DNA of 64,000 bases from Winogradskyella sp. GTDB lineage: Bacteria > Bacteroidota > Bacteroidia > Flavobacteriales > Flavobacteriaceae. The stretch is from the NCBI GenBank assembly GCA_004211785.1, contig SHBX01000013.1, forward strand, positions 1-64,000, in the 5' to 3' direction. How positions within the stretch are numbered: position 1 is the stretch's first letter; every line of letters begins with the position of its first letter. A program made the position numbers and the translations under genes. Shown here in pieces: positions 9,178 through 29,221 of the stretch. Below the pieces are notes generated by a model. The model saw only the letters and a list, made by a program, of their open reading frames with translations. It ran no database searches and was not told the origin of the DNA.

Positions 9178-9211
9178 AACGCTTTCAAAATTTTGAAAGC
9201 GTTTTTTTTTG
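9178..9211 (+). terminator. Intrinsic terminator after the small secreted protein
   Basis: AACGCTTTCAAAA is followed at once by TTTTGAAAGCGTT and a long T-run: a perfect 13-bp inverted repeat with almost no loop. It separates the fumC region from hutI. Confidence 0.85.
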
Positions 9212-25122: not shown

Positions 25123-25151
25123 AAAAAAACCAGCTCTAGAGCTGGTTTTTT
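25123..25151. terminator. Bidirectional terminator
   Basis: A-run, the 16-base perfect palindrome CCAGCTCTAGAGCTGG (25130-25145) and T-run. It separates the small membrane protein (plus) from ettA (minus), which converge here. Confidence 0.88.
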
Positions 25152-27166: not shown

Positions 27167-28039
27167 TTAAGAAGCTGGAAGAAATCCCATTTTCCCCATT
27201 TGATAATCTCTTAAGGCTTCCATGATTTCGGTTTGAGTATTCATTACATAAGGTCCATAAGTTTTTACAGGTTCATTAAATGGCAATCCTGAAAGGAATA
27301 GCAATAGACTATCTTCTGATGCTTCTAAAGAAAATCCATCACCATCTTGATTAAATTGAATGAATTGATTCTCATTCAATTCTAAGGTATCAGTACTATT
27401 AACCCTTACTTTTCCTTTTAATAAATACAACAAGCCATGATGCTCATTTGAAAAATGAATAGTTTCATTTCCGCTTGACTTTGCGTCAATCATAAACGCA
27501 TTAACTGGAGTTTGCGTTGCAATCTCACCAAATTTGTTATTAAGCTTACCTGCAACAATTCTAGTTTCAACTTTTTTATCTTCAGAAATAATGACATTAA
27601 AATCTTCATGAACAACATGTTGATAATTTGGCTGTATCATTTTCTTTTCTGCTGGTAAATTCAACCATAGTTGAATACCTTCAATAGTTCCGCCTTTTCT
27701 AACAAAATCTTTTGTTGGTCCTTCTGCATGAATAATCCCTCGACCAGCAGTTGTCCATTGCACATCACCAGCTTTGACAATACTCTCATTGCCTAAAGAA
27801 TCACGATGTAGCTGTTCTCCTTGAATAAGAAATGTAACTGGCTCAAAACCGCGATGCGGATGTGGTCCTAAATCAAACGGATTACTACTTTCATTAATTT
27901 CGTAAGGACCATAATGATGCAATAGTATAAATGGGTCTACCATATCTATTTGTTGTGTTGGTAATGGTTGACGCAATCGTATTGGTCCCATATTAACCAT
28001 ATCGCTTCTCCCTAGTGTTTTTATTGTTTTATGCTTCAT
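27167..28039 (-). CDS. Pirin family protein (cupin; quercetinase-like)
   Basis: This 290-residue bicupin carries the pirin metal site H60, H62, H104 and E106 in GPHPHRGFEPVTF and GRGIIHAEGP. The first cupin domain is followed by a degenerate C-terminal cupin (HFSNEHHGLLYLLKGKVRVN region). Bacterial pirins bind iron and some act on quercetin; others regulate metabolism. It is the third gene in the series FMN reductase, MarR regulator, pirin on the minus strand. A perfect 20-bp palindrome (28054-28073) lies 15 bases before its start, which suggests direct control by the adjacent MarR protein, perhaps in response to electrophiles or oxidants. Confidence 0.9.
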   Translation of the reverse strand: MKHKTIKTLGRSDMVNMGPIRLRQPLPTQQIDMVDPFILLHHYGPYEINESSNPFDLGPHPHRGFEPVTFLIQGEQLHRDSLGNESIVKAGDVQWTTAGRGIIHAEGPTKDFVRKGGTIEGIQLWLNLPAEKKMIQPNYQHVVHEDFNVIISEDKKVETRIVAGKLNNKFGEIATQTPVNAFMIDAKSSGNETIHFSNEHHGLLYLLKGKVRVNSTDTLELNENQFIQFNQDGDGFSLEASEDSLLLFLSGLPFNEPVKTYGPYVMNTQTEIMEALRDYQMGKMGFLPAS

Positions 28040-28053
28040 TTTAATTTGATTTA

Positions 28054-28073
28054 ATATTTTCCATGGAAAATAT
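28054..28073. promoter_or_regulatory. Candidate MarR operator upstream of pirin
   Basis: A perfect inverted repeat with half-site ATATTTTCCA and its complement, centred on CCATGG, lies between the MarR and pirin genes. It shares the TTCC-NN-GGAA core with the two sites before the FMN reductase gene. Confidence 0.65.
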
Positions 28074-28089
28074 ATGATTAAAAAAATGC

Positions 28090-28527
28090 CTAACGCATCT
28101 TATCTAGCAGGTTGCTTAATTGCTCTGCTTCTTCTTCTGTGAGATTCTTTAACAAATCTCTATTTAAATGCTTAGGAATAGAATTTAGTAATTCTAATCC
28201 TTCACCTGTAATAATAATCTTTACTACACGTCTATCATGTTCTGATGGTAAACGCTCAATATATTCCTTTGCACATAACTTATCCATAAGACGTGTGGCA
28301 TTAGGTGAACGTTCTAACATTCTGTCTTTGATAGTTTGTACTTTCAAAGGTTCATTAGCGCCTCTTAGGATTCTAAGGATATTATACTGTTGTGGTGATA
28401 TACCAAAGGGCTTAAAAAACTCATTTTGACAACTCGATATCCAGTTTGCTGTATATATTATATTCAACAAAGCTTTAACTCTATTGCTTTCGAATTTAGA
28501 ATTTATATCTCTTGATAAATCTCCCAT
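28090..28527 (-). CDS. MarR family transcriptional regulator
   Basis: This 145-residue winged-helix regulator matches the MarR family in length and layout: dimer helices at both ends, a recognition helix around SPNATRLMDKLCAKEYIERL (about 75-94), and the wing RLPSEHDRRVVKIIITGEGLELL. A Cys near the N-terminus (SCQNEFF, Cys34) could be a redox sensor, as in OhrR-type proteins; that is inference. It lies ten bases downstream of the FMN reductase gene and 50 bases upstream of pirin. Three similar inverted repeats flank these genes and are its likely operators, so it probably represses its own operon. Confidence 0.9.
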   Translation of the reverse strand: MGDLSRDINSKFESNRVKALLNIIYTANWISSCQNEFFKPFGISPQQYNILRILRGANEPLKVQTIKDRMLERSPNATRLMDKLCAKEYIERLPSEHDRRVVKIIITGEGLELLNSIPKHLNRDLLKNLTEEEAEQLSNLLDKMR

Positions 28528-28537
28528 TGCACAGATA

Positions 28538-29068
28538 TTATAAACTATCTTTTAATTGTTTTACTTCTTCAAGTAATTCAGAGTTAAATGCTTCGTCAGT
28601 AATTTTCCCATCTGAAAAATTAGTACCAAATGAAGGTAAAGAAAATTTTCCTACTACATTTCCTCCCATATGTGGAAATGTACTTGTAGCAGTTTCTAAT
28701 ACTGACATGCCTCCACGACCTCCTGGCGATGTAGCCATAATTAGCATTGGCTTTTCTTGCCATAATTTCCCTTCTAATCGCGAGACCCAATCCATTATGT
28801 TTTTGAATGCTACTGCATAAGAGCCATTATGTTCTGCTAACGATAAAATTATTCCATCTGAACTTTTTAAAAGATTAGAAAATATATTTGCCTCATCTGG
28901 AATACCTCTTTCATTTTCCTCATCTATACCATACATCGGCATCACAAAATCATTTAAATCTAATATTTCAATCTCTACTCCATCAACTAAACTAGCTGCA
29001 TATGTAGCTAATTGTTTATTTATTGATGCTTTACTATTACTTCCCGCAAATGCTATTATTTTTTTCAT
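28538..29068 (-). CDS. NAD(P)H-dependent FMN reductase-like oxidoreductase
   Basis: This 176-residue flavodoxin-fold protein begins MKKIIAFAGSNSKASINKQL, the phosphate-binding loop for FMN, and contains SPGGRGGMSVLETA (about 112-125), the second flavin-contact motif, preceded by LEGKLWQEKPMLIMAT. Members of the family (ChrR, SsuE, azoreductase-like) reduce flavin, quinones or chromate. It is first gene of the MarR-controlled unit. The promoter elements TTG (29117-29119, reverse) and TAAATTTG (29089-29096) sit under an inverted repeat, which fits repression. A role in detoxifying electrophiles is likely but unproven. Confidence 0.88.
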   Translation of the reverse strand: MKKIIAFAGSNSKASINKQLATYAASLVDGVEIEILDLNDFVMPMYGIDEENERGIPDEANIFSNLLKSSDGIILSLAEHNGSYAVAFKNIMDWVSRLEGKLWQEKPMLIMATSPGGRGGMSVLETATSTFPHMGGNVVGKFSLPSFGTNFSDGKITDEAFNSELLEEVKQLKDSL

Positions 29069-29088
29069 GTCTTATTGTTTTGATAGTA

Positions 29089-29119
29089 CAAATTTATGAA
29101 AAAAATATCTATATTCCAA
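29089..29119 (-). promoter_or_regulatory. Promoter of the FMN reductase-MarR unit
   Basis: Read on the minus strand, TTG (29119-29117), a 20-base spacer and TAAATTTG (29096-29089) match the Bacteroidetes -33/-7 consensus. Transcription would begin near 29083, about 15 bases before the start codon. The -33 element falls within the inverted repeat at 29111-29126. Confidence 0.65.
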
Positions 29120-29126
29120 GGAATAT
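29111..29126. promoter_or_regulatory. Candidate MarR operator 1, overlapping the -33 element
   Basis: ATATTCC-AA-GGAATAT is a perfect inverted repeat with a two-base centre. It covers the -33 TTG of the FMN reductase promoter. Confidence 0.6.
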
Positions 29127-29140
29127 ATTTCCATGGATAT
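29125..29140. promoter_or_regulatory. Candidate MarR operator 2
   Basis: ATATTTCC-AT-GGATAT, an imperfect repeat with the same core as operator 1, is centred 15 bases from it, so the two sites are close to one and a half helical turns apart. It contains the CCATGG centre of the site before pirin. Confidence 0.55.
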
Positions 29141-29221
29141 TAAATTTAACAATTCATTTAGAATTTTGCTAAATACCTAAGCATTAAGTTTTGTAAATTC
29201 GTGCCAAACAAGAAAAGCTCG

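Follow-up and report, generated by a model that had tools for sequence, protein, structure and literature searches.

A MarR-type repressor that regulates its own operon is an ordinary, well-known kind of switch; in the case described here the comparative evidence is unusually good. The partner genes of Escherichia coli MarR are other than those of the present locus, and the role of bacterial pirin, which is encoded here, is poorly settled. MhqR of Staphylococcus aureus and Bacillus subtilis is a quinone-sensing MarR repressor controlling quinone reductases and dioxygenases, and its binding to DNA requires the loop residues that precede its recognition helix (PMC12893000, excerpt). In E. coli MarR, Cys80 senses copper and sulfane sulfur (PMC8614764, excerpt). 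Literature searches on the regulator, the operon and the chemistry, covering mainly open-access journal papers, yielded no description of the system considered below.

The window, that is, the entire 64,000-nucleotide stretch of Winogradskyella sp. analysed, belongs to a 2.9-Mb assembly. Of 199 genomes of the same family (Flavobacteriaceae) that were searched, 80 have a MarR orthologue at 52% identity or more. The cut-off was set where identities drop from 52% to 46%, and 84 other genomes with weaker matches were scored as lacking the orthologue. The 94 loci compared consist of the window, 79 orthologues from the family and 14 from the genus. A second copy at 46% identity (L211) was excluded from every count.

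Structure of the locus and candidate operators

The locus is transcribed from the minus strand in the order FMN reductase-like gene, marR, pirin (Table 1). The product of marR contains a winged-helix MarR domain (PF01047, 43.7 bits at a cut-off of 24.6), and its AlphaFold2 monomer model (pLDDT 87.1) has the MarR fold, with the recognition helix at residues 77-86, residue 73 in the loop before it and C85 in its last turn. All ten named NCBIfam families tried (HpaR, MarR, SlyA, OhrR etc.) scored below their cut-offs, the best being HpaR with 44.3 against 121.2.

Table 1. Candidate regulatory sites and genes of the locus (coordinates of the window)
Feature	Coordinates	Strand	Comment
Pirin gene, 290 aa, probable second transcription unit	27167..28039	-	Pirin PF02678 3.5e-29, Pirin_C PF05726 6.3e-22
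Site B, perfect 20-bp palindrome ATATTTTCCATGGAAAATAT, candidate pirin operator	28054..28073		14 bp 5' of pirin ATG
Terminator-like hairpin and T-run at the marR 3' end	28080..28101	-	-6.9 kcal/mol, z -1.28, weak in the window
MarR-family regulator of 145 aa with C33, C85 and, ahead of the recognition helix, R73	28090..28527	-	Pfam MarR PF01047 2.5e-11
FMN reductase-like gene, NADPH-dependent, 176 aa, the operon's first gene	28538..29068	-	Pfam FMN_red PF03358 4.1e-34
Operon promoter, -7 element TAAATTTG	29089..29096	-	20 bp from TTG
Site A, near-perfect palindrome, minus strand ATATATTCCTTGGAATATAG, candidate main operator overlapping -33	29109..29128		conserved position
-33 TTG within the centre of site A	29117..29119	-	TTG-to-TAAATTTG spacing 20 bp
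Site A'', weaker palindrome, minus strand TTAATATCCATGGAAATATA, overlaps A, 15 bp upstream	29124..29143		core compared with TTACATGGAA

Three related TTCC-NN-GGAA inverted repeats, including a perfect 20-bp palindrome before pirin, had been predicted as operators of the local MarR protein. All three are present at the predicted places. The core is exact in two of them, A and B, whereas A'' has ATCC..GGAA and extends three bases past position 29140. Judging by sequence comparison, namely the sites themselves, their conservation, their tie to marR and pirin and the joint change of residue 73 and the operator, the repeats are very probably operators of the MarR protein of the locus, which thus probably controls its own operon and pirin, a detoxification-type gene beside it.

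In flavobacterial promoters the -33 element is TTG. The -7 consensus is TAnnTTTG (PMC9723704, excerpt). The minus-strand sequence upstream of the flavin reductase gene is TTAATATCCATGGAAATATATTCCTTGGAATATAG, followed 12 bases on by TAAATTTG. The placement of one repeat on the -33 TTG of the operon promoter, a part of the original prediction, is correct: the TTG is supplied by the centre of site A. The position of this candidate operator suggests autorepression. The central dinucleotide of site A is TT in 61 of 89 loci, and in 54 of these TAnnTTT(G/A) follows at the same 20-bp spacing. The other centres are AT (11/89) and TA (17/89), and thus the central TTG is not universal. In five loci a further copy of the operator lies 33 bp downstream of A, across the -7 element. 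A generic scan for sigma-70 promoters was uninformative here, with nine found and 8.0 in shuffled sequences.

Conservation in orthologous loci

In 89 of the 94 orthologous loci, the operon is preceded by a site A with at most two mismatches in 20 positions; the consensus of the site is WTAnwTTCCWWGGAAwnTAW. The remaining five loci are contig ends (L165, L217) or have variant sites (L163, L194, L222). This conservation of position places the sites beyond chance. An overlapping set of 80 loci, not independent of the main genome set, contains site A with at most one mismatch in 76 cases and the exact site in 66. Of the four loci missed in this set, three are close to the beginning of a contig, and one has its exact site at -1983.

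In 64 of 89 loci, a core similar to TTACATGGAA (at least 8 of 10 letters) is situated upstream of A at a distance of exactly 15 bp; at 55 other offsets, the mean number of such loci is 0.04. Thus A'' is a real second element.

Among 13 distant members of the class (42-51% identity, L233-L245), T(T/A)CCNNGG(T/A)A with A+T-rich arms directly precedes marR in only two (L234, L235), so that the operator is not shown beyond the family. L232 is from the same family as the window.

Operon partners and the candidate signal

The flavin reductase gene is present at all 94 loci. Frequent neighbours are pirin (84 loci), DoxX-like (32) and small GNAT enzyme (31) genes, followed by Fe-S/CDGSH genes (7), whereas an azoreductase-like flavoprotein (two loci) and an OsmC-like protein (one locus) are rare. 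Apart from pirin, these neighbours are additions to the operon found in different relatives. The short pirin has a C-terminal domain of the quercetinase type. By gene association, these contents of the operon suggest electrophile or quinone stress, and we lean slightly towards an electrophile as the signal. An electrophile or oxidant had been proposed originally; the agreement lies in the gene content (flavin reductase, pirins, DoxX, azoreductase, OsmC) and in nothing else.

The N-terminal cysteine, C33, had been pointed out originally. A sensor role for it is not supported by the alignment, where C33 is present in just 14 of 94 orthologues. C85 is found in 71 of 94, and C95 in 61 of 94, the latter position being a serine in the MarR protein of the window. 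Should sensing involve a thiol, C85 and C95 are better candidates than C33.

It is quite conceivable, if less probable, that the palindromes are operators of MarR but the signal is of another kind, copper, sulfane sulfur and a carboxylate ligand being examples. Judging by the titles of the structures, MarR proteins with similar folds respond to a variety of ligands, and C85, present in most orthologues, is shifted by one residue relative to the copper- and sulfane-sulfur-sensing Cys80 (PMC8614764, excerpt). However, the flavin reductase, the pirins and the few azoreductase and OsmC genes fit quinone or thiol stress better, the argument being one of association only.

Sites and marR across genomes

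Among the family genomes, the exact 20-bp pattern was found in 58 of the 80 that have the MarR orthologue and in four of the 119 that lack it (Fisher p 9e-27; here, as in the association tests for pirin and residue 73, Fisher p-values ignore relatedness). Of the 75 exact sites listed, 67 lie within 2.5 kb of marR and eight are off-locus; sites in three genomes (G006, G038, G133) were counted by genome and stand outside the 75. The eight off-locus sites compare with six matches of the reversed control pattern in the 199 genomes. All four sites in genomes without the orthologue (G016, G032, G056, G136) are inside coding frames, and thus look like chance hits. In genomes with the orthologue, three off-locus sites are located 27-69 bp before other genes, and one (G040) is where a coding frame begins.

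The base preceding the CC of the operator is variable. TACC replaces TTCC in both halves in eight of 85 loci, nine of the 94 having been left out of this test as they lack the T(T/A)CCNNGG(T/A)A core. Lysine at position 73 of MarR occurs in six of these eight loci and in one of the other 77, the strongest association among the 145 MarR columns. The combination of K73 with TACC is seen in three places of the tree: in a five-locus group, one member of which (L210) has R73, in L194 and in L197. The sisters of L194 (L185, L225) have R73 with TTCC. The sister of L197 (L165) has R73, and its promoter is beyond the contig end. The exceptions are two loci with R73 and double TACC (L163, L210) and one with K73 and a single TACC half (L208). 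A Pagel-type test, fitted with a capped optimiser on a midpoint-rooted FastTree tree built with residue 73 masked, favoured dependent evolution (LR 16.3, p = 0.0027). This coupled change of TTCC to TACC and of R73 to lysine points to the MarR protein at the locus as the binder. The original assignment of the repeats to the local marR is thus upheld by the conserved position of site A, by the distribution of exact sites and by the dependent evolution.

One could suppose that the palindromes are bound by another regulator, MarR being merely a passenger. Under this supposition one would note the eight listed exact sites away from marR, three of the four in orthologue-containing genomes preceding genes. 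We consider it very unlikely: the site follows the orthologue, the off-locus number is near that of the control, the off-locus sites of G131 and G171 described below are not kept in homologous loci, and a base of the operator changes together with a MarR residue beside the recognition helix.

Several off-locus copies may be listed separately. In G131, an exact copy (L331:4001-4020) lies 69 bp before a YceI gene, and in G171 (L330:4001-4020) one lies 27 bp before an operon including a YceI-like gene, as judged by eye; both are far from marR. These two sites are private, each being present in one of 30 homologous loci (the best 30 of 195 and the best 30 of 84 genomes, respectively), and their candidacy as a conserved part of the regulon was rejected. 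The sequence TTATTTTCCTAGGAAA(A/C)TAA occurs 30 bp before a gene that by eye is RadC/JAB-like in two genomes, G153 (L226:4001) and G215 (L230:4001), both with a marR orthologue, G215 being a member of the genus. If MarR binds at the three off-locus sites before unrelated genes, it may do more than is described here. Among five sites with one mismatch (G227, G211, G214, G157, G201), three are in coding frames and two are intergenic, and no relatable gene was seen beside any of the five. In L144 (G061), there are two operator-like sites 36 bp apart; counted downstream from the start of marR, they are at 2574 and 2610 bases. Finally, there is a second, commoner MarR group (about 40-47% identity), which in some family genomes (for example G012:C24, G083:C19, G157:C1, G179:C1, G198:C1) is beside YceI, adjacency being judged by coordinates.

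Pirin and site B

A long pirin gene of the kind found in the window is present in 40 of the 94 loci. Site B accompanies it in 23 of these 40 and occurs in none of the 54 others, in agreement with the predicted control of pirin. Of the 17 loci with the long pirin and without site B, ten have a gap of at most 28 bp between marR and pirin, and there transcription from site A may run on into pirin. In the remaining seven, the absence of the site is not explained by a short gap.

The 3' end of marR may contain a terminator. Besides the hairpin of the window, a 101-base stretch of a relative (L133) has a fold z of -3.84. A T6 run no more than 45 nt from the stop codon of marR is present in 13 of the 23 loci with site B, in two of the 17 with pirin and without B, and in one of the 54 without this pirin. 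The hairpin of the window was absent from the output of a generic terminator scan. No -33/-7 pair could be placed for pirin.

Site B might alternatively be an RNA hairpin over the pirin start, controlling translation, rather than a DNA operator. It is only 14 bp from the start codon, the hairpin can form (-4.0 kcal/mol), and the arms of the site agree at positions 4-5 in 18 of 23 loci, 9.2 being expected. However, the fold is at the level of shuffled sequences (z -0.32). Moreover, the same motif occurs as site A on the -33 element, where it precedes the transcript and where the arms agree too (48/89 against 26.8), and several loci with pirin close behind marR have no site B. Translational control of this type thus has a slim chance of being correct, and site B is treated as a candidate DNA operator.

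The central ATG of site B opens a frame of seven codons (28041-28064, minus strand), the stop of which is separated from the pirin ATG by a single base. As a start of pirin itself this ATG was rejected, being in frame in seven of 23 loci, about the one third expected by chance.

Motif counts in the window and in its genome

The window contains three copies of TTCCNNGGAA; the mean in shuffled sequences is 0.82, and three or more copies were obtained in five of 100 shuffles. It also contains three perfect 20-bp palindromes against 0.25 expected under a first-order Markov model. By themselves, these window statistics are only suggestive. The palindrome at 25128-25147, AACCAGCTCTAGAGCTGGTT, lies between two convergent reading frames and is perhaps a two-way terminator. 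A further perfect 20-bp palindrome, GCTTTCAAAATTTTGAAAGC, is at 9181-9200.

Genome-wide counts were obtained by pattern searches, with the reversed pattern as a control. The 20-bp pattern with at most one mismatch has three matches in the genome of the window: A, B and a site in a coding frame (C23:82793). Thus the full motif is not frequent outside the predicted targets. The ten-letter core TTCCNNGGAA is not enriched in this genome (21 matches against 18 for the reversed pattern), nor is the 20-bp pattern with three mismatches separated from its control (186 against 176). As the looser patterns are at the control level, no wider regulon can be claimed for this genome. The view that the palindromes arose by chance in A+T-rich DNA, to which this lack of enrichment would be congenial, is refuted by the conserved position of A and the exact spacing of A'' and has next to no probability.

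Proposed regulation and comparison with known systems

We infer the following scheme, including in it the repression, the number of dimers, the inducer and a promoter of pirin. MarR would be a local autoregulatory repressor, a dimer of which would bind the palindrome with the TTCC-WW-GGAA centre. Bound at A, probably with a second dimer at A'', it would cover the -33 element, and the promoter of the flavin reductase-marR operon would be shut off. At site B, it would control pirin as a second unit after the terminator-like element. MarR would be released by an inducer, for which an electrophile, for instance a quinone, is the likeliest candidate, so that the flavin reductase and pirin would be made.

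On a larger scale, one may tentatively envisage a MarR electrophile regulon throughout the Flavobacteriaceae (80 of 199 genomes), with the operator coinciding with the -33 element, two dimers on an overlapping array, TTmC-GGAA-TTCC-GGAA, with 15-bp spacing, and R73 or K73 setting TTCC or TACC; we would not yet wager on this picture as a whole. If it is true, the family is a natural experiment on the joint change of a repressor and its operator. For a MarR regulator of Bacteroidota, the analysis yields an operator consensus, defined targets and a residue that is a candidate for setting specificity, and the operon ties pirin to stress genes of the flavin reductase kind. The circuit is small, and one protein and three DNA probes are enough for testing it.

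The closest match by sequence among solved structures is PDB 3u2r ("Regulatory protein MarR", E 3.8e-16), which we take to be a planctomycete protein; to our knowledge, no operator is known for it. By fold, PecS comes first (8ylh_A, Z 16.0, rmsd 2.1, 143 aligned), entries within 1 being tied. The one-cysteine sensors OhrR and SarZ have the same fold (1z91, Z 13.8, rmsd 2.7, 130 aligned; 4gxo_B of the SarZ/OhrR type, Z 14.5, rmsd 2.8, 133 aligned), but the conserved N-terminal redox cysteine of the OhrR type has no counterpart here, given the rarity of C33.

E. coli MarR also shares the fold (5h3r_B, Z 14.7, rmsd 2.6, 134 aligned) and likewise has a cysteine where the recognition helix ends. 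However, the column of its Cys80 is occupied by A86, and C85 is one residue earlier. C85 could still function similarly despite this offset.

MhqR differs from the regulator described here in phylum and in operator: that of MhqR-type repressors is TATCTCGAA-ATCGAAATA (PMC12893000, excerpt), whereas the present one is TTCC-WW-GGAA. On the other hand, MhqR, whose type is characterised by a quinone pocket of F11, F39, E43 and H111, has the same MarR fold (9qdr_A, Z 15.0, rmsd 3.8, 135 aligned, 20% identity) and matches the MarR protein of the window in sequence (E 2.3e-05). In both systems a palindromic operator, here a very probable one, precedes the regulator's own operon, and the reductases and dioxygenases controlled by MhqR may be compared with the flavin reductase and the pirins of this locus.
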